From Pseudodesulfovibrio alkaliphilus (GTDB lineage Bacteria; Desulfobacterota; Desulfovibrionia; Desulfovibrionales; Desulfovibrionaceae): DNA of 64,000 nt. A program made the translations under genes and the position numbers. Shown piece after piece: positions 52,115-61,522 of this stretch. The stretch lies in NCBI RefSeq assembly GCF_009729555.1, contig NZ_WODC01000002.1, positions 248,001 to 312,000 of the forward strand. Direction: 5' to 3'. A model generated the notes under the pieces. The model had not been told where the DNA came from and ran no database searches. It worked only from the letters and a program-made list of their open reading frames with translations. Position 1 is the stretch's first letter. Each line of letters opens with the position of its first letter.

Positions 52115-52792
52115 TCATTCCTCGTTTGGCTTGAGTGTTTCGGTGTCGATGATGCGGCCGTTTTCGATGCGAAGAACATGGTCGCTGACCGCGTGCAGCC
52201 AGGCCATGTCGTGGCTGGCGATGACCAGGGCCGTGCCGAATGTGTCGCGGGCGGCCAGGGCTGCTTTGCGGACCAGGGCCGCGCTGCTTGCGTCCAGGCT
52301 GGCAGTGGGTTCGTCCATAAGCAGCGCCCGGGGACGCAGGACCAGCCGGGCAGCCAGGGCCACCCGTTGGGCCTCACCGCCGGAGAGCTCGAACCACTGG
52401 CGCCGGGCGAAGCGCTCCGGGTTCAGGCCAACTGATTCCAAAGCGCTGAAAACCCGCTTTGTGGGGTCTTCCCGGCCGCGCACCTTGAGGCCGTAGGCCA
52501 CGTTGCCGAAGACGCTGCGGCGAAGGAGATAGGGCTCCTGGACGAGCAGGGTGACTTGCCGGTGGACCGGACCGGGCGAGGCGGCCGCAGGGGAACCCTC
52601 AAAGGTCATGGTGCCCGAGGCCGGGGACTCGAGAAAAGCCAGCAGTCGAAGCAGGGTGGATTTGCCTGAGCCGTTTGGCCCGGCCAGTCCGACGATGCTC
52701 CCGGGCCTTATATCGAGGCGGTCCACGCTGAGGACGGTTCGGTCTGCATAGCGCTGGCGCACGTTGAAGAGACTGATGAGGGGCTTGGTCAT
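52115..52792 (-). CDS. tupC: tungstate ABC transporter ATP-binding protein
   Basis: A 225-residue ABC ATPase: Walker A GLAGPNGSGKSTLLRLL, signature ELSGGEAQRVALAARLVL, Walker B RALLMDEPTASLDASS and the switch His in VIASHDMAWLHAVSD. It powers the TupAB importer. It overlaps tupB by 4 bp and is followed 1 bp later by the MobB-like gene. Assignment to Tup rather than Mod or Wtp rests on the binding protein upstream. Confidence 0.93.
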   Translation of the reverse strand: MTKPLISLFNVRQRYADRTVLSVDRLDIRPGSIVGLAGPNGSGKSTLLRLLAFLESPASGTMTFEGSPAAASPGPVHRQVTLLVQEPYLLRRSVFGNVAYGLKVRGREDPTKRVFSALESVGLNPERFARRQWFELSGGEAQRVALAARLVLRPRALLMDEPTASLDASSAALVRKAALAARDTFGTALVIASHDMAWLHAVSDHVLRIENGRIIDTETLKPNEE

Positions 52793-53484
52793 CGTACGGC
52801 CTTACGCTTGAGGCCCGAGGCCAGGATGTTGACGGTCAGGGCCACAGTCAGCAGGACCATTCCCAAGGCGATGCCCATGGCAAATTCGCCTTTGCCGGTC
52901 TCAAGGGAGATGGCCGTGGTGATGGTTCGCGTGTGCCACTTGATATTACCGCCCACCATCATGGAGATGCCTACTTCCGAGACGATGCGGCCATAGGCGG
53001 AAACTGCGGCCAGCATGATGGAAAAGCGCGCCTCGACCACCGTGGCCCAGAGGATCTGGCGGGAGTTGGCCCCGAGGGTGGTCAGAGTCATGGGCAGCCG
53101 TTTGTCTAGCGCCTCCACGGCCGTGGCCGTCATGGCGATGATCACCGGCAGGCCGAGGATTGTCTGTCCGATGGCTATGGCTGGCAGGGTGAAGAGCAGC
53201 CCGGCCCCGCCAAAGGGCCCGCGATGGGTCAAAAAGGCATAGACCAGCAGGCCGATGACCACCGTGGGAAACGAGAGCAGGGTGTCCACCAGGGTGCGCA
53301 CGATCTTTTTGCCGGGGAATGTCTTGTGTCCGAGCAAGAATCCGAGGGGGATGCCGACGGACAGGCTGGCGGCCATGGCCATGGTGGAGGCTGCCACCGT
53401 GGCCCATATGGCGGAATAGGTTTCAGGGTCGCCCGAAAGCAGAAGGAGAAAGCCCTGGAGAAAGCCCTGAAGCAGAAAATCCAT
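52789..53484 (-). CDS. tupB: tungstate ABC transporter permease
   Basis: A 231-residue permease with six helices and the BPD-type inner-membrane loop VEALDKRLPMTLTTLGANSR (EAA loop). It has HTRTITTAISLETGKGEFA near the C-terminus, characteristic of TupB. It starts at ATG 53484. A very stable hairpin separates it from tupA upstream. Confidence 0.93.
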   Translation of the reverse strand: MDFLLQGFLQGFLLLLSGDPETYSAIWATVAASTMAMAASLSVGIPLGFLLGHKTFPGKKIVRTLVDTLLSFPTVVIGLLVYAFLTHRGPFGGAGLLFTLPAIAIGQTILGLPVIIAMTATAVEALDKRLPMTLTTLGANSRQILWATVVEARFSIMLAAVSAYGRIVSEVGISMMVGGNIKWHTRTITTAISLETGKGEFAMGIALGMVLLTVALTVNILASGLKRKAVR

Positions 53485-53500
53485 GTGATGTCCGTTATGG

Positions 53501-53527
53501 CCGGGGGAGCGGTGGCCGCTCCCCCGG
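53501..53527 (-). terminator. stable intercistronic hairpin between tupA and tupB
   Basis: CCGGGGGAGCGG (53501-53512) and CCGCTCCCCCGG (53516-53527) form a 12-bp stem with a 3-nt loop. No T-run follows on the minus strand. It probably halts exonucleases or causes partial termination, so that the binding protein is made in excess. Confidence 0.75.
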
Positions 53528-53544
53528 TTGATGTCGTGACGCGT

Positions 53545-54369
53545 TTATTTGGCGTTGGGAGTGAAGAGGGGCTTACCCAGGAGTGTGAAGTTGCCGATGG
53601 CCTGCTGCACGGCCGGGGAGGCCATCCAGTCGATGAACTGCTTGGCCATGTCGTATTTGGCGTTGGGGCATTTGGCCGGGTTCACGGCCAGGGCACTATA
53701 TTGGTTGAAGAGAACCGTGTCGCCTTCCACCAGGACCACCATGGGAGGGGTGCCGCCCTTGGTGTCGGCGTATTTGATGTAGGTACCACGGTCGGTGAGG
53801 GTGTAGCCGTTCTTTTCGGCTGCCACGTTGATCGTGGCGATCATACCCTGGCCGGTCTGGACGTACCAGGTTTCCTTCTCGGGAATGGCCAGTCCGGCAG
53901 CGGTCCACAGTGACTGCTCCATCTTGTGGGTGCCCGAGTTGTCGCCCCGGCTGGCAAAGACGGCCTTGGCGCCTTCGATTGCCTTGAGGGCGTCGGTGAC
54001 GTTCTTGTCCTTGACATTTGCCGGGTCTGAGGCGGGGCCAATGATGATGAAGTCGTTGTACATCAGTTCCCGGCGGTCCAGAAGCGCACCGGAATTGACA
54101 TATTCCATCTCGGCATCAGGAGCATGGACGAGGACCACGTCAACGTCGCAACCCTCGGCCATCTTGAGAGCCTTGCCCGTACCTACAGCCACGAACTTGA
54201 TCTCCACGCCCGTATCCTTCAGATACATGGGCACAATGAGTTCGTCGAGCAGGCCGGTGTTGGCCGTGCTTGTGGTGGTGGACATCATCAGGGTTTTGTC
54301 CGCCAGGGCGGGCAGAGCCAGGGTCAGGACAAAAATCAGACAAAGCGCGATCAAAGTAATTCGTTTCAC
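53545..54369 (-). CDS. tupA: tungstate-binding periplasmic protein
   Basis: A 274-residue protein starting at GTG 54369, with GGAGG 7 nt upstream. The signal peptide is ITLIALCLIFVLTLALPALA, and the mature start LMMSTTTSTANTGLLDELIV carries the TTTS motif that marks TupA. Family segments VDVVLVHAPDAEMEYVNSGA, SRGDNSGTHKMEQSLW and GQGMIATINVAAEKNGYTLT complete the anion site. High affinity for tungstate over molybdate is known for TupA. It is 37 bp after the ModE-type regulator gene. Confidence 0.94.
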   Translation of the reverse strand: MKRITLIALCLIFVLTLALPALADKTLMMSTTTSTANTGLLDELIVPMYLKDTGVEIKFVAVGTGKALKMAEGCDVDVVLVHAPDAEMEYVNSGALLDRRELMYNDFIIIGPASDPANVKDKNVTDALKAIEGAKAVFASRGDNSGTHKMEQSLWTAAGLAIPEKETWYVQTGQGMIATINVAAEKNGYTLTDRGTYIKYADTKGGTPPMVVLVEGDTVLFNQYSALAVNPAKCPNAKYDMAKQFIDWMASPAVQQAIGNFTLLGKPLFTPNAK

Positions 54370-54406
54370 AGGTATTCCTCCGGGTTGCGGGTTCGGGAGA
54401 GGGGCG

Positions 54407-54793
54407 TCATTCGGTGTCTTCCCGATAGAACTCGCCTGCCTTATCCACCTGCATTTCCAGCACTTCCGACGCCCGCTGGGCGGCGTATGCCTCGACATCG
54501 AGATAGAAGCGGAGGAATTTGTTCATCAGCTCCCTGCCATGAGGGGAGAGGGTGAACCGCTGTCCCTGGCCGCGGACCTTTTCCACCAGGGGATGCCCGA
54601 TGCGCTCTTCGGCTTTCTTAAGTTTGCCCCAGGCGCGACGGTAGGACATGTTCAGTTCCTCGGCCGCCTTGCGTAGCGAGCCCAGGCGTTCAATGTGCTG
54701 TAAAAGCAGCGTACTTCCTATCCCGAGGTAGGTTTCGCGGTCCTGCTCGATCCAGACTCGCAGGCGAATTGTGGCGTTGTCCTTGCTTGGCAT
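54407..54793 (-). CDS. ModE N-terminal-type regulator (TunR-like)
   Basis: A 128-residue LysR-type winged HTH like the DNA-binding half of ModE: LLLQHIERLGSLRKAAEELN then MSYRRAWGKLKKAEERIGHP and GQGQRFTLSPHGRELMNKFL. It lacks the two molybdate-binding TOBE domains, so it either senses metal another way or responds to a separate molbindin. In Desulfovibrio a similar single-domain TunR represses tup and related genes. It sits directly upstream of tupA, and a palindrome lies 36 bp before its start. Confidence 0.88.
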   Translation of the reverse strand: MPSKDNATIRLRVWIEQDRETYLGIGSTLLLQHIERLGSLRKAAEELNMSYRRAWGKLKKAEERIGHPLVEKVRGQGQRFTLSPHGRELMNKFLRFYLDVEAYAAQRASEVLEMQVDKAGEFYREDTE

Positions 54794-54844: not shown

Positions 54845-54924
54845 ACGATCACCTTGGTCCGTCATGGCAGATGTTGGAATATTAAGTCAAGTTCGGCATA
54901 ATTACGTAGGGTTTTGCACTCATG

Positions 54925-55764
54925 TCACAGGGAAACCGTTTCGAAAGAGAGTTGCTTGAGATCAATGAGGAGCATCTTGCCCGTAAGGGGCGAGGGTTCG
55001 CCCGAGAGCAGGCGTACGACCTCCGTGGCCATGAGGGTGGCCACGAGGTTGACCGTGGGGATCGGGCAGCCGAGTTTTTCCTCGGCCCCGTTGTCGAGTC
55101 CCATGAATTGCGCCGGGCCGGGCTGACCGGGCATGACTACTGCCACGTAGCCCGTCCAGCCCGCAAGTGCGCCAGTGACCAGCGGAATGTCTGCCTCAGC
55201 AGCGCATTGTTGGAGGGTCAGCCGGTGGGTCATCCCCCCCAGGGCGTCGATGGCCAGATCAGCCCCTGTCAGGAAGCCGGGCAGGGAGTCTTGGGAAAGG
55301 AATTCGTGCCGAGCGTCCATCGTGACCGAAGGATTGATGCGGGCAGCCGCGATCCGGGCAGCCTCGGCCTTGGAACGCCAGACATTGGAGGTGTCGCTCA
55401 GTGCTTGACGGTTGAGATTGCTTTCCTCGAAGTCGTCGCCGTCAGCCACGCGCAGGGTGCCCACACCCAGGCGCAGCATCTGTTCAAGGAGGGTGCCGCC
55501 CAGCCCGCCCAGCCCCACCTGGGCAACCTTGGCGCGCAGCAGACGTATCTGGGCCTTAGGGGTGATGCTGTGCATGTTGCGCAGGTAGCGCGTAGGAATG
55601 ATGTCGAGTTCAAGGGCCCGGGCCTCGACGCCGCACCCGGAAAGCCCCTGATCGGGAGCGATCACTGCCACGGCTCCGGGGGGAAGCGTCAGTGCGTGAC
55701 CTCCCTGGGGCATGGGATTCGGAATCATCATGCTGTGGATGGCCACATCAAGGGAGGGGAACAT
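54925..55764 (-). CDS. ThiF/MoeB/HesA family adenylyltransferase
   Basis: A 279-residue E1-like protein: VAQVGLGGLGGTLLEQMLRL is the ATP loop, GDDFEESNLNRQALSDTSNV the conserved Asn/Arg/Gln set and AIDALGGMTHRLTLQQCAAE the following strand. It lacks the C-terminal CxxC zinc pair of MoeB. It begins 4 bp after the MoaD-like gene, so it probably adenylates that partner's C-terminal Gly-Gly for sulfur transfer to pterin in tungsten cofactor synthesis. The first 75 residues, before the E1 core, are extra. Confidence 0.9.
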   Translation of the reverse strand: MFPSLDVAIHSMMIPNPMPQGGHALTLPPGAVAVIAPDQGLSGCGVEARALELDIIPTRYLRNMHSITPKAQIRLLRAKVAQVGLGGLGGTLLEQMLRLGVGTLRVADGDDFEESNLNRQALSDTSNVWRSKAEAARIAAARINPSVTMDARHEFLSQDSLPGFLTGADLAIDALGGMTHRLTLQQCAAEADIPLVTGALAGWTGYVAVVMPGQPGPAQFMGLDNGAEEKLGCPIPTVNLVATLMATEVVRLLSGEPSPLTGKMLLIDLKQLSFETVSL

Positions 55765-55767
55765 GCT

Positions 55768-55995
55768 TTAGCCGCCCCCTACGGGCGGGAACAGTCCGAC
55801 TCGGTCTCCGTCCCTGATCTCGCTGTCAAGGTAGGCTCTGGCGGAGTTGATGAAAATGAGGGCTATATCGTCCTCTGGGATGCCCAGTTTGGCGACGAGC
55901 GAACGTACCGTCTCGCCTGGCGCGGCGGGGTAGTCGGCCGCATTGGCGGGCAGGCTGGGGGCCAGTGTGGCGAAGCACTTGATTTCGATACCCAT
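55768..55995 (-). CDS. MoaD/ThiS family sulfur carrier
   Basis: A 75-residue beta-grasp protein: PGETVRSLVAKLGIPEDDIA, LIFINSARAYLD, IRDGDRVGLFPPVGGG. It ends in Gly-Gly-Gly, as needed for adenylation and thiocarboxylate formation, perhaps with loss of the last Gly. It works with the ThiF-like enzyme encoded next and presumably with molybdopterin synthase elsewhere. AOR-linked MoaD proteins like this are known next to tungsten enzymes. No ribosome site is evident. Confidence 0.92.
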   Translation of the reverse strand: MGIEIKCFATLAPSLPANAADYPAAPGETVRSLVAKLGIPEDDIALIFINSARAYLDSEIRDGDRVGLFPPVGGG

Positions 55996-56092: not shown

Positions 56093-57820
56093 CTAGACCT
56101 TGGCGCCCTGCAGTTCGTCAACATCCAGATCCCATACCACGCCATGAGGCGGCAGGGGATCGGTTTCGAAGAAACGGGGCAGCTTGTCGTCCATCTTGGT
56201 GAACCCTGCACGCTCGTTGAACGCCTGCTCGTCCTTGAGGCAGTTGATGCCAAGGTTGACCAAGTCGTCGGCGCTGAAGGGCTTGCCAGTGTAAGCCTGG
56301 ACCAGGTCGGCCATGGCCTGGACCCCGTTTGGCGCATCAAGGACCGCGAAAGCAACGAACAGGCAGAAGCCCATGGAGTCGATGGCTGCGGTGGCCACCT
56401 GGAGGTTCTTGGAGAGTTCTACGTTGCCTTCCTTCTTGTGGCCGTCGATGTCTCCGCCCACCTTGAGGATGTTCTGAGCCACGCCGTAACCGGCGGTGTG
56501 GTCCGCTCCCATGGCCGAGGTGGCGTAGGTGACTCCCACCCCCTTGACCGCACGGGGGTCGTAGGCGGGCATGGACTGGCCCTTGACCGTGGGCAGACGG
56601 TCCACGCCGAAGGCGCCTCCGGCGAAGTCCACGCCGTTGCCCATGATCATACCCATGGGATCTTTGGTGCCCACCTTGGAGAGCAGTTCGATGGATGCCT
56701 TGCCATCGCCCCAGGGGATGATGCCGCCGTCCATGGCGATTGCCAAAGTGTTGCCCACCTCGATGGTGTCCATGCCCTTTTCATCACAGATGCGGTCGAT
56801 GGCAGCGATGTCGTCAATGTCCTTGATCATGGCGTTGGCACCCAGGGCCCAGACCGTTTCGTACTCGAAACCGGAGGTCAGGTACTCGCCTTTGGCATCG
56901 TTGTACTGTTGGGAGCACTGGATGATGCAGCCCGCATGGCAGCCTTCGGTGGTTTTGCCGCCTCGGGCGTTGATGACTTCGGCAATCTTCTCGCCTGATA
57001 TGTCGGCGGCATGGTCAACTTGGCCCAGGCGGAAGTTCTTGCCCGGCAGGGCACCGGCCTCATTGACCACGTTGACCAGGATGGAGGTGCCGAAACCGGG
57101 CAGCCCCTGGCCGGTGACAGGGTGGCCCTGAAGGATTTCGACCCAGGTCTTGCGAGCGGTTTTGAATGCCTCAACGTCGACTGCGCCGACTTTGTTGCTG
57201 ACAGCAGGATCAAGGATGATCGCCTTGATTTTCTTGGAGCCCATGACTGCGCCGGTGCCACCCCTGCCAGCCGAGCGGGCGGGCCGCTTGTAGGGGTCGG
57301 TGAACTGGATGGTGGCGGTCAGGCGCAGGGTCTCGCCGGCCGGGCCGATCATGGCCGCCACCAGTTTGTCGCCGTATTCGGCCAGCAGCTTGTCGTGGGC
57401 CGGGTAGTTGTCCATGCCCACAATGGGTGTTGCATCCTTGAAAGTCACCTTGCCATCGCTGATGAACAAGGTGGAGAAGGGGGCTCCTTCTTCGGGTTTA
57501 TCTTCAAGGATGATGGCCAGCAGGTCCATCTTCGGCATTTTGTGAGCGAAGAGGCCGCCGGAATTGGACTCCTTGATCCCCTTGGTCAGGGGCGACTTGG
57601 TCCCGACCGAGACGCGGCCGGAGTTGGCTGCGGTGGAGCCGCCGAGTAGGCCGGTGGCGATGACGAGCTTGTTCTCGGCCGAGAGCGGATGGCAGTCGGC
57701 AGGAACCTCGGTATTGATGATGCGGGAGGTCAGTGCCCGGCCGCCAAGATTGGCGTAGTTGCCGGCGTCCTCAAAGGTGTACTCTTTTGTACGGGTGTTG
57801 ATTCTCAGGATCTTTGGCAT
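56093..57820 (-). CDS. aldehyde:ferredoxin oxidoreductase family protein (tungsten)
   Basis: A 575-residue AOR-family protein starting at ATG 57820 (GCGAGGA upstream). The N-terminal pterin-binding domain has NYANLGGRALTSRIINTEV and GGSTAANSGRVSVGTKSPLT. Then come PARSAGRGGTGAVMGSKKIK and the cluster cysteines in TTEGCHAGCIIQCSQQYND, spaced Cys-x3-Cys-x3-Cys, which resembles the YdhV-type subgroup more than classical Pyrococcus AOR (Cys-x2-Cys-x3-Cys). It should oxidise aldehydes, or a related substrate, using a tungstopterin and one [4Fe-4S]. It is upstream of MoaD-ThiF and the Tup importer. The substrate is not predictable. Confidence 0.93.
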   Translation of the reverse strand: MPKILRINTRTKEYTFEDAGNYANLGGRALTSRIINTEVPADCHPLSAENKLVIATGLLGGSTAANSGRVSVGTKSPLTKGIKESNSGGLFAHKMPKMDLLAIILEDKPEEGAPFSTLFISDGKVTFKDATPIVGMDNYPAHDKLLAEYGDKLVAAMIGPAGETLRLTATIQFTDPYKRPARSAGRGGTGAVMGSKKIKAIILDPAVSNKVGAVDVEAFKTARKTWVEILQGHPVTGQGLPGFGTSILVNVVNEAGALPGKNFRLGQVDHAADISGEKIAEVINARGGKTTEGCHAGCIIQCSQQYNDAKGEYLTSGFEYETVWALGANAMIKDIDDIAAIDRICDEKGMDTIEVGNTLAIAMDGGIIPWGDGKASIELLSKVGTKDPMGMIMGNGVDFAGGAFGVDRLPTVKGQSMPAYDPRAVKGVGVTYATSAMGADHTAGYGVAQNILKVGGDIDGHKKEGNVELSKNLQVATAAIDSMGFCLFVAFAVLDAPNGVQAMADLVQAYTGKPFSADDLVNLGINCLKDEQAFNERAGFTKMDDKLPRFFETDPLPPHGVVWDLDVDELQGAKV

Positions 57821-57930: not shown

Positions 57931-57962
57931 ATTATATTATGCTCGAGATGGCATAATGTAAT
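57931..57962. promoter_or_regulatory. long inverted repeat in the divergent AOR/57998 promoter region
   Basis: ATTATATTATGC (57931-57942) and GCATAATGTAAT (57951-57962) are complementary at 11 of 12 positions around an 8-bp spacer. It lies about 111 bp upstream of the AOR start and 36 bp upstream of the 57998 gene. AT-rich and well placed for a regulator of both genes, perhaps the ModE-type protein encoded nearby. Confidence 0.55.
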
Positions 57963-57997: not shown

Positions 57998-58582
57998 ATG
58001 AAAAAGAACGAAAAACGCCTGCGTGTGCGCATGAGCCACCAAGGCAGACTGGCCTGGAATTTTTTGCTTCAAAAGGGATTTTATCTTGTCGGCCAGGCGG
58101 GTATGACGGTGCGTGAGTTCCTGGCCGCAGCCCTGGGCTATGACGACAGGACCATCGAGGAGCAGGTTCGGACCATCTTTCTCAACAGCAGTCCCATGGA
58201 TGACATTGATTCGGCGCATGTCCGGGACGGCGACAGGGTGGCCCTGGGCGGTGCCATGCCCGGCCTCATCGGCATCTGCATGGGCCGCGACAATCCCTAC
58301 AAGGGATTCCGCAGCGACATTTCGGTCCGGGCTGATGAAACAGTGGCGGACAACAGTGAACCCATCGGCGTGTTCGTCAAGATTTTCAGTACGCTGGCCG
58401 TGGATACCGGCGAGGCAGTTCTGGCTCGGGGCATCATTCTGGACGCCGCAGATCTGGCCGAATTTCTCTCCCGCCAGCAGGCGCACCTGCTTCCTCTTGA
58501 CGGTCAATCCGTTGAATACCAACTGGCCGAAGCCCGGACCATGACAGGCCGCGTGGTCGTGTCCGTGGAGTTTGTCGGCTAG
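57998..58582 (+). CDS. protein of unknown function with MoaD-like beta-grasp segment
   Basis: A 194-residue protein. Residues 37-90 (TVREFLAAALGYDD, RTIFLNSSPMDDID, VRDGDRVALGGAMPG) align by eye with the MoaD-like protein at 55.8 kb (TVRSLVAKLGI, LIFINSARAYLD, IRDGDRVGLFPPVGG). Unlike MoaD the fold does not end there: about 100 residues follow, with FVKIFSTLAVDTGEAVLARG and a beta-rich end, so no free Gly-Gly is present. It is divergent from the AOR gene and shares its regulatory gap. A chaperone or adaptor role for the tungsten enzyme is inference. Start ATG 57998 has AAAAGG upstream. Confidence 0.6.
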   Translation: MKKNEKRLRVRMSHQGRLAWNFLLQKGFYLVGQAGMTVREFLAAALGYDDRTIEEQVRTIFLNSSPMDDIDSAHVRDGDRVALGGAMPGLIGICMGRDNPYKGFRSDISVRADETVADNSEPIGVFVKIFSTLAVDTGEAVLARGIILDAADLAEFLSRQQAHLLPLDGQSVEYQLAEARTMTGRVVVSVEFVG

Positions 58583-58920
58583 TCCGGGCAGCCCAGGCCC
58601 GTGGCATAGACCTTCAGTTTATCCACCTGCTCGGCGTAGCGCCTTTGGTTGATCACATCTTCGGTTTCGTAGCGGGAGACGTTGTCGTTCAATGCCCATG
58701 CTATCTTGTGGCAGGCTTCTTCCCGTTCATTAGCGGGCATGGCATCAAAGGAGTCGCCGTACTTTTCTTTGGCACTCCGGTAGGCTTTTTCCGCGATTCG
58801 GAATTCCGAGTCCGCCATCTCACGCAATCTGTAGATGTCATCAATGTCTTGGGCGGGCGCTGTTGCCGCCATCAGCAAAACCGCCAGGGCCAGCGCGGCC
58901 GTCCCAGAGAATTTGAACAT
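58579..58920 (-). CDS. small periplasmic protein of unknown function
   Basis: A 113-residue protein with a signal peptide (ALALAVLLMAATAPAQ). The mature part is helical and charged (YRLREMADSEFRIAEKAYRS) with two Cys (EEACHKIAW and the end GLGCPD) that may form a disulfide. GGAGG precedes ATG 58920. Its stop shares CTAG with the convergent 57998 gene. I recognise no family; it resembles small lysozyme-inhibitor-like or YecT-like periplasmic proteins only in size and helix content. Confidence 0.72.
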   Translation of the reverse strand: MFKFSGTAALALAVLLMAATAPAQDIDDIYRLREMADSEFRIAEKAYRSAKEKYGDSFDAMPANEREEACHKIAWALNDNVSRYETEDVINQRRYAEQVDKLKVYATGLGCPD

Positions 58921-59419: not shown

Positions 59420-61522
59420 TCATGAGCGGCTGACGCAGCCCTCCTCGCTGCACTCCCGTGCGGGCAGATCGCGGTTGTAGCAGGTCAGGCCGCAGCGCAG
59501 GCAGCGGCAGGCTTCGTGTTTGGCCTCCTCGCTGCTCAGGGCGCCCTCAATTTCCTTGAAGGTGCAGACGCGTTCGTCGCAGCCGATGAGGTGCGGCACG
59601 GTGGAGCGCTTGCGGTATCCCACGTCGGGCACATGGGTGAACATGGTGTAAGGGATGAGATCGCGCTGAACCTTGGCGGAGTAATGAGGTGCGCCGTCGG
59701 TCAGGTACTGGTGGATGGAGCGTGCGGCCTTGCGCCCCTCGCCCAGGGCGGTGATGACGATGCCCGGCCCGGTGTGCATGTCGCCGCCTGTGAAGACATG
59801 GGGCAGGGCGGTCTGGAGCGTGACAGGGTGCGCGTCCAGGGTGCGCCATCTGGTCTGTTTCAGCTGGCAGTTGCCCTCCTCGTCGTAGAGGCAGGAAAGC
59901 TCGGGCTTCTGGCCGATGGCCGTGTACACGGTGTCCGCCTCGATCAGGGCCGCGGATCCTTCAACGGGAACAGGGCTGCGGCGTCCTGATTCGTCCGGCT
60001 CGCCAAGCTCCATGCGGATGTACTCCACATGGGTGACATGGCCGGATTCGTCGCTGACGATGCGGGTGGGGGCGGCCAGAAAAAGGTATTTGACGCCTTC
60101 TTCCTCGGCCCCGATGATCTCCTCGATGTTGGCAGGCATCTCGCCCTTTGTTCGACGGTACATGAGAGTCACCTCCGCGCCAAGACGGACGCTGGTGCGG
60201 GCCGTGTCGATGGCTGTGTTGCCGCCGCCGATGACCACGACCTTGCGCCCCACGCCGGGGTCCATGTTCAAACCCACCTTGGTCAGAAACTCGGTGCCGG
60301 TTTCCACGCCCTTGGCGTCTTCGCCCTCGATGCGCAGGGTCATGTTCATCCACGCGCCAATGCCCAGAAACACGGCCTCGAACCCCTCTGCCTTGAGGCT
60401 TTCGAGATCGAAGTCAGTGCCAAACGTCTTTCCGTGGACAACGTCGATCCCCAGACCGAGGATGCCTTCTATCTCCCAGTCAAGGACAGCCTTGGGCAGC
60501 CGGTACTCGGGGATTCCGTAGCGCAACTGGCCGCCCAGCTTGGGCATGGACTCGAAAATGGTCGGGCTGTGGCCCAGGCGACGCAGGAAGAAGGCGCAGG
60601 AGAGCCCGGCCGGACCGCCTCCCACCACGGCCACCCTGCGGCCGGTTTCAGGCGCACAGGGGATGGGCAGATGCTGGCCCGAGTTCATTTCCCAGTCGGC
60701 AACATAACGCTTGACCATGTTGATGCCCACCGGAGCGTCCACATGGGTTCGGCGGCAGGCGCTCTCGCAGGGATAGGGGCAGACCCGGCCGATGGTCAGC
60801 GGCATGGGGATACGTTCGCGGATGGTCTCGAGCGCCCCGGCGAAGTCGCCCCGCGATGTCTGCTCGATGTAGCGGGGGATGTTGATTTGTCCGGGGCAGC
60901 GCTGGCGGCACGGGGCGAGGCAGTCGGTGATCTCGTTGAGGTGTGCCAGTCGGGCGGTCATGCCCCAGATGGTGATGACTCCCCGCGGGCAGACCTGGGC
61001 ACAGGCTCCGCAGGCGGTACACAGGGCCGGGTCCACCACGGGGTAGCCGTGAGGGCCCATTTCGATGGCTCCGAACTGGCAGGCCGTGACGCAGGTGCCG
61101 TGCCCCAGACACCCTTCCGGGCACATCTTGTTGCCGCCGTAGAGCAGGTCCTGGGCGCGGCAGTCGCTTACTCCCGCGTAGTCGTAGATTTCCTCGGCGC
61201 GGATGCCGCCGGTGCAATCCACAAAGGCGATCTGCTTTTCCATGGACGAGAAGCTCAGGCCCATGATGGCTGCAACATTTGCCGCCACCTCGTCGCCGCC
61301 GATGACGCAGACCGTGGCCCCCGCCCGGCCGCTCACAACGCCCTGGGCCGCGGCGGCGCAGCCAGGGAAGCCGCAGCCACCGCAGTTGGCTCCGGCCAGG
61401 ACGCTCTCCACCTCGGCGATGCGCGGGTCTTCGTAGACGTAGAGGAGCCTGGAGGCCATGGCCAGAATGGCTGCCGCCGAAAACCCTATGCCCAGCAGGA
61501 CAAGAACCGATGTCAGGATCAT
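59420..61522 (-). CDS. rnfB: RnfB fused to GltD-like FAD/NAD(P)H oxidoreductase
   Basis: A 700-residue protein with an N-terminal membrane helix (SVLVLLGIGFSAAAILAMAS). The RnfB cluster domain is ANCGGCGFPGCAAAAQG. Two further [4Fe-4S] sets are KMCPEGCLGHGTCVTACQFG and CTACGACAQVCPRG. From about residue 205 a GltD-type module follows: CPGQINIPRYI, VCPYPCESACRRTHVDAP, VAVVGGGPAGLSCAFFLRRL, VVVIGGGNTAIDTARTSVRL, and near the end the Cys set CRCLRCGLTCYN. RnfB normally ends after the ferredoxin part (about 190-280 residues). The fusion could link Rnf directly to NAD(P)H or a second electron path. It is the last gene of the operon; apbE is not adjacent. Confidence 0.9.
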   Translation of the reverse strand: MILTSVLVLLGIGFSAAAILAMASRLLYVYEDPRIAEVESVLAGANCGGCGFPGCAAAAQGVVSGRAGATVCVIGGDEVAANVAAIMGLSFSSMEKQIAFVDCTGGIRAEEIYDYAGVSDCRAQDLLYGGNKMCPEGCLGHGTCVTACQFGAIEMGPHGYPVVDPALCTACGACAQVCPRGVITIWGMTARLAHLNEITDCLAPCRQRCPGQINIPRYIEQTSRGDFAGALETIRERIPMPLTIGRVCPYPCESACRRTHVDAPVGINMVKRYVADWEMNSGQHLPIPCAPETGRRVAVVGGGPAGLSCAFFLRRLGHSPTIFESMPKLGGQLRYGIPEYRLPKAVLDWEIEGILGLGIDVVHGKTFGTDFDLESLKAEGFEAVFLGIGAWMNMTLRIEGEDAKGVETGTEFLTKVGLNMDPGVGRKVVVIGGGNTAIDTARTSVRLGAEVTLMYRRTKGEMPANIEEIIGAEEEGVKYLFLAAPTRIVSDESGHVTHVEYIRMELGEPDESGRRSPVPVEGSAALIEADTVYTAIGQKPELSCLYDEEGNCQLKQTRWRTLDAHPVTLQTALPHVFTGGDMHTGPGIVITALGEGRKAARSIHQYLTDGAPHYSAKVQRDLIPYTMFTHVPDVGYRKRSTVPHLIGCDERVCTFKEIEGALSSEEAKHEACRCLRCGLTCYNRDLPARECSEEGCVSRS

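Follow-up and report, generated by a model that had tools for sequence, protein, structure and literature searches.

The closest described relatives of the protein reported here are ubiquitin-like carriers of the MoaD/ThiS family (PF02597), among them WorX, a ThiS-like protein encoded near WOR (available portions of PMC13328260). In A. aromaticum, the AOR operon encodes the MoaD-like proteins AorD and AorE, which the accessible passages of PMC6365974 and PMC9295118 present as putative maturation factors. When the two were co-expressed, the activity of AOR rose from 4.5 to 16 U/mg, reaching 85 with added W; when no W was added, the W content fell from 1.06 to 0.39 despite the higher activity (PMC9295118, same passages). 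Neither protein was present in the purified enzyme (PMC6365974, in the part available). A transposon screen in D. vulgaris names aor and W-cofactor genes among 15 that are chlorate-detrimental; none of the 15 is described in the accessible sections of PMC10102598 as resembling the protein below.

The window analyzed here, a stretch of 64,000 nucleotides from Pseudodesulfovibrio alkaliphilus, contains a tungsten AOR gene and, divergent from it, an intact frame for a MoaD-like protein, designated FAM (Table 1). FAM has the beta-grasp fold, the sequence profile and the AOR neighbourhood in common with the MoaD/ThiS carriers, WorX included, but it carries a P-G loop in place of the Gly-Gly end and an extra C-terminal domain. 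FAM adjoins AOR and has a ThiS-like fold, as portrayed for WorX in the passages of PMC13328260 at hand, yet it is a two-domain protein, and the locus has a free GGG carrier that fits that description. The likeness to AorD and AorE is one of description, and the A. aromaticum AOR differs in being a three-subunit enzyme (PMC6365974, PMC9295118, both in part). FAM also has single-domain relatives without the Gly-Gly end, and both forms occur in AOR genomes. No paper was recognised as describing FAM in literature searches whose reach excluded most subscription papers, and term searches within papers returned nothing on it.

Table 1. Features of the AOR-FAM locus, in window coordinates
Feature	Position	Strand	Basis
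FAM (two-domain GG-less MoaD-like protein), 194 aa	57998..58582	+	frame, BLASTP, AlphaFold2 model, structure matches
N-terminal beta-grasp domain of FAM, residues about 6-87	58013..58258	+	AlphaFold2 strands/helices, ThiS/MoaD structure matches, profile match to MoaD
Conserved inter-domain loop M87-P88-G89-L90-x-G92...R97...R105, replacing the carrier Gly-Gly tail	58256..58312	+	155 aligned rows
C-terminal domain of FAM (residues 122-194), which may be another, degenerate beta-grasp	58361..58579	+	model and profile
Palindrome TTATGCTCGAGATGGCATAA, putative shared Mo/W-regulon operator	57937..57956	.	divergent AOR-FAM gap
Tungsten AOR (aldehyde:ferredoxin oxidoreductase)	56093..57820	-	PF01314 E 1.4e-75, PF02730 E 3.4e-58
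Free MoaD/ThiS-like carrier, ends GGG	55768..55995	-	PF02597 E 2.9e-8, translation
ThiF/MoeB-like (E1-like) adenylyltransferase	54925..55764	-	PF00899 E 2.3e-43
ModE-type DNA-binding regulator	54407..54793	-	TIGR00637 E 1.2e-12, under curated cut-off
Tungstate-transporter-like tupA, tupB, tupC (frame limits)	52115..54498	-	named by eye from ORFs

A MoaD-like domain without a carrier tail

The AOR start was set at the ATG of MPKILR. The free GGG carrier of the locus fits WorX as presented in the available text of PMC13328260, and tup-like genes adjoin AOR in many relatives. On the other side of FAM, a gene at 58579-58920 (-) encodes a small protein that by eye seems to have a signal peptide and that gives ChaB-like matches under the cut-offs; the gene is convergent with that of FAM, overlaps its last 4 bases, and was found next to FAM in 7 loci of the first locus set read. 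Beyond it lies an RnfB-like gene of 700 codons (59420-61522, -), whose later part resembles GltD-type FAD oxidoreductases by eye and whose product is matched across nearly its full length in several relatives of the same genus.

The initial annotation had proposed, from an alignment by eye, that FAM residues 37-90 form a MoaD-like beta-grasp segment within a larger protein, and BLASTP, shuffles, profiles and the structure model agree with this. Residues 35-83 share 45% identity with the MoaD of the locus (E 2e-5 in that single BLASTP comparison). The Smith-Waterman score of the pair, 62, was reached by none of 2000 shuffles (the largest gave 50), and FAM ranked first against this MoaD among 273 stop-to-stop window frames of at least 100 aa. 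A profile of the N-terminal half matched a profile of AOR-linked MoaD proteins (44 rows) at E 1.4e-8, a level that none of 200 column-shuffled controls attained, and the whole-FAM profile gave probabilities of only 0.2-0.3% with the ThiF, TupA, ModE, TupB and RnfB profiles. In Pfam, no family matched FAM at E up to 1, PF02597 included; among the distant members scanned, L044 reached the ThiS model at E 0.07, under the family cut-off. Weak PDB sequence matches of the FAM profile to diadenylate cyclases (E 1.3 and 1.8) were treated as false, and two genome matches, G231 and G303 (loci L152 and L153), which by eye we took to be diadenylate cyclase, were removed from the counts.

The AlphaFold2 model of FAM has a mean pLDDT of 91.7 and a pTM of 0.87. 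ThiS/MoaD-type carriers were the best structural matches of residues 27-90, in keeping with the fold suspected at the outset. All of the top nine rows are carriers: TT1568 in row 4, and eight whose titles name them as such (ThiS, MoaD, TtuB and CysO complexes). An extra strand and helix at residues 6-26 precede the matched part, so the domain spans about residues 6-90, wider than the 37-90 first proposed. The sequence confirms that about 100 residues follow the segment. FAM terminates in ...VVVSVEFVG, without a Gly-Gly end, and a Gly-Gly C-terminus was found in none of the 21 members of the FAM alignment (A1). As translated, FAM cannot serve as a MoaD-type carrier.

Conservation was read from 155 rows (21 of alignment A1, 99 of alignment A2 and 35 locus frames, with some proteins present twice), leaving out L132, L148 and L152-L154. 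Five of the strongest positions fall within M87-R105, the site of the Gly-Gly in a carrier: P88 is conserved at 99%, G89 and G92 at 100%, R97 at 93% and R105 at 99%. M87 in the same loop is conserved at 92%. The corresponding values are 97% for G27 and 99% for F61 and D68 in the N-terminal part, and 92% for K128, 95% for F130 and 100% for G145 in the C-terminal part.

In the full-length model, the C-terminal half repeats the strand and helix order of the N-terminal half at high pLDDT. Its profile match to MoaD has E about 2e-4, and no shuffle scored as high (0/200 and 0/100), with an alignment of 16 columns in one run and 52 in the other; when it was compared with the single-domain profile, one shuffle in 100 was equally high. 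Modelled alone from one sequence, the C-terminal domain gave an unusable pLDDT of 49. An internal duplication was rejected at the sequence level, as the two halves matched hardly above chance (5/200 and 3/100 shuffles as high); a comparison without column matching (77%, E 2e-5) was discounted. If the C-terminal half is a beta-grasp, FAM has the same layout as the N-terminal module of AOR, described as two tandem beta-grasps in the accessible part of PMC1949818. Tried as a parent of FAM, this module gave no profile signal (0.4% probability); no AOR chain was among the structural rows for FAM, a list that cannot exclude a likeness to the module.

Distribution and linkage to AOR

A protein search returned 103 proteins including the query, the named ones being hypothetical or of unknown function from Pseudodesulfovibrio or Desulfovibrio, and an alignment search that scored the 8000 candidates sharing most words returned at least 413. 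One match of 131 aa (E 1.2e-10) came from Thermodesulfovibrionales, which presumably lies outside the phylum of the window's organism. FAM was found in 49 of 60 genomes, the window's own included, and there were no matches in the plasmid collection. One sequence filed as a plasmid, NZ_CP154629.1 (L209), is 2.6 Mb long and may be a chromosome.

For the locus survey, the window was read together with 78 other true homologue loci (40 + 38), which were taken from search lists before their neighbours were seen, leaving out L052, which lies on the same contig as L001, and two false matches. AOR was present within the fetched stretch in 71 of these 79 loci; in L034 it is only a fragment at the contig edge, and in L151 it lies 4.3 kb away. 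In the other eight (L044, L130, L148, L149, L150, L155, L166 and L167), AOR is found elsewhere in the genome. Beyond the window's genus, a tandem AOR-FAM order is common, and FAM is divergent or unlinked in many genomes. A linkage survey had been proposed in the initial annotation, and linkage proved strong for AOR and frequent for MoaD and ThiF.

At the genome level, FAM occurs in 101 and AOR (E 1e-50) in 161 of 199 genomes of the class set, with both in 100; the lone FAM genome without an AOR call, G051, has an AOR fragment at a contig edge beside FAM. Fisher tests on this co-occurrence ignore kinship. In the phylum set (198 genomes), 27 FAM matches were found; two were false, and each of the 25 true carriers has AOR. 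The distances of FAM correlate with those of AOR (r 0.77, 65 rows with both L001 and L052, reached by 0 of 999 permutations). For the 35 rows with ThiF, the correlation is 0.85 with ThiF versus 0.84 with AOR, and it therefore shows co-inheritance of a cassette rather than contact. The window's own genome has a second, tandem AOR-FAM pair (L032:6249-8600), which shares 37% and 52% identity with the window's pair and 43% and 74% with a pair from another family (G048), and is nearer to pairs from other families than to the window's own.

A single-domain form occupies part of the remaining AOR genomes. Among 20 AOR loci of FAM-less genomes, 4 encode another MoaD-like protein, whose tail ALAPPGVPGPYRVLLGF is followed by a few more residues, and strong matches occur in 28 of the 199 class-set genomes (19 at E 2.1e-31 or better, the remaining nine at E 2.8e-14 to 5.5e-12). 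The cut (E below 1e-11 against a single query) was chosen once a gap in the list had been noticed, and diverged copies could escape it. All 28 genomes have AOR (28 of the 161 AOR genomes) and none has FAM; the two forms coincide in none of the 199. Of 22 single-domain loci read, 13 are near AOR and nine are not. The genera g13, g21 and g22 each have some genomes with FAM and others with the single-domain form. In Acetoanaerobium (Bacillota), AOR, the single-domain form and a GGG carrier stand in a row, the slot between AOR and carrier being that of FAM in L129 and L136. The N-terminal profile of FAM matches that of the single-domain form at E 1.7e-10, aligned through GDRVAL...PG. The tail of the latter reads P[PQ]G[VTIC]PGPYR..LG, and the form is weakly detected by ThiS, Ub-Mut7C or SAMP2 models. 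GG-less MoaD relatives with PPG[TI]PGPYR tails (L189-L197) lie away from AOR in AOR-bearing, FAM-less genomes.

Neither form was found, at the cuts used, in 33 of the 161 AOR genomes, 24 of them from one genus (g15), and many AORs therefore seem to manage without. Placed on a tree of 96 AOR rows (67 with FAM, 18 whose genome has the single-domain form, 11 with neither), the three states require 8 changes, where shuffling gives a mean of 27.3, so few independent events lie behind the distribution. Beyond the phylum, Azospirillum and Cetobacterium each have one GG-ending carrier in the AOR locus, and no MoaD/ThiS-family gene was seen in the incomplete gene table of the Thermus locus; the feature is therefore not general to AOR-family enzymes.

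A palindrome shared with other Mo/W genes

The gap between the AOR and FAM genes holds a palindrome of the form ATTATGC-N8-GCATAAT. In 25 divergent gaps, the pattern TTATGYN8RCATAA has 0, 1, 2 and 3 mismatches in 8, 13, 3 and 1 cases, and 24 of 25 gaps hold it with at most two, a count that is not independent because the pattern was derived from the same gaps. With a slightly longer pattern, the window has three matches at up to two mismatches versus 0.45 expected (none of 100 shuffles reached three); a one-mismatch copy at 54882-54901 lies upstream of the ModE-type gene. The window's own genome, an independent check, has four exact sites: the AOR-FAM gap, one site 414 bases before a molybdopterin-oxidoreductase gene resembling formate dehydrogenase, and two that precede an FmdE/MoCF_biosynth gene and an aldehyde dehydrogenase gene by about 20-25 bases. 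Six more sites have one mismatch, one at the ModE-type gene, two at another MoCF_biosynth gene and three elsewhere (C1:700078, C7:12412 and C15:18234); with one mismatch allowed, a control pattern gave 7 sites versus 10 for the palindrome, and single-mismatch sites are therefore weak by themselves. We infer that a regulator acts at the palindrome. Copies of it occur in a Mo/W gene cluster (L215:2-13802) that combines an aldehyde dehydrogenase with MoCF_biosynth genes, an XO-type aldehyde oxidase and a formate-dehydrogenase-like oxidoreductase.

Possible roles of FAM

The initial annotation had suggested a cofactor-insertion helper sharing a promoter gap with AOR. The conserved palindrome in that gap, as before other Mo/W genes, together with the ThiS/MoaD fold and the AOR linkage, makes a helper role plausible at the level of sequence. 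We put about even confidence in FAM being an AOR-dedicated accessory protein, derived from a MoaD-type beta-grasp domain that lost its carrier chemistry; because of the A. aromaticum precedents, maturation is the likeliest role, held at about the same level. FAM would bind apo-AOR, or the neighbouring carrier/E1 pair, non-covalently through its ubiquitin-like face and P-G loop, and would aid the loading or finishing of the tungsten-pterin cofactor. The single-domain GG-less form may do the same job in other lineages. Weighing against this role are the 33 AOR genomes with neither form, the D. vulgaris screen, in which no chlorate-detrimental gene is described as such a protein, the W content that fell in A. 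aromaticum when no W was added, and a FAM-ThiF correlation as close as that with AOR.

FAM could instead remain attached to mature AOR as a small subunit or a regulatory partner, gating ferredoxin or substrate access for example. Tight co-occurrence and co-divergence with AOR would fit this, as would the tandem order; however, the frequent divergent or unlinked placement is unusual for a stoichiometric subunit, no cysteine occurs among the FAM positions conserved at 80% or more (155 rows), and the available part of PMC13328260 describes class I WORs as the large subunit alone, so we regard this as unlikely, if worth keeping in view. FAM might also serve AOR differently, for instance as a sensor of aldehyde, tungstate or cofactor. 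The palindrome common to other Mo/W genes is consistent with sensing, but no DNA-binding or ligand-binding family was found for FAM in Pfam or NCBIfam, and we consider it improbable.

The adaptor for the ThiF-like E1, or decoy competing with the free carrier, that the initial annotation also offered gained no specific support. The MoaD-like fold without Gly-Gly, the frequent nearby ThiF and MoaD genes and the FAM-ThiF correlation would suit it, but the fetched loci yielded ThiF in 35 cases versus 67 for AOR (counts subject to length filters, with L001 and L052, one locus, both included), and MoaD and ThiF were likewise not found nearby in the eight loci without a nearby AOR, where absence nearby is not absence from the genome; we think it quite improbable. 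Scarcely more credit, if anything less, goes to a proprotein cut in the P-G-L-x-G loop, freeing a C-terminal glycine to yield a true carrier. The invariant G89 and G92 and a global alignment of the loop onto the carrier tail speak for such a cut, but the product would end in one Gly only, positions in the second domain are conserved, and the single-domain relatives retain about 8 to 23 residues past PGPYR.

Within the accessory reading, a more specific picture is tentative and rather doubtful as a whole: FAM would be a dedicated cofactor-loading AOR chaperone derived from a ubiquitin-like carrier no longer in service, its Gly-Gly tail turned into a P-G docking loop, with single- and double-domain versions interchanging across lineages. 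The double-domain form may mimic the two-beta-grasp pterin module of AOR so as to keep the tungsten-pterin bound or pass it on.

How tungsten-pterin is loaded into AOR-family enzymes is unexplained in the passages of the literature that were available. Occurring here only in AOR-bearing genomes, with no carrier tail and with a simpler relative elsewhere, FAM is a testable candidate for this step. If the accessory role is true, FAM would represent the evolution of a ubiquitin-like fold from carrier to accessory protein in bacteria.
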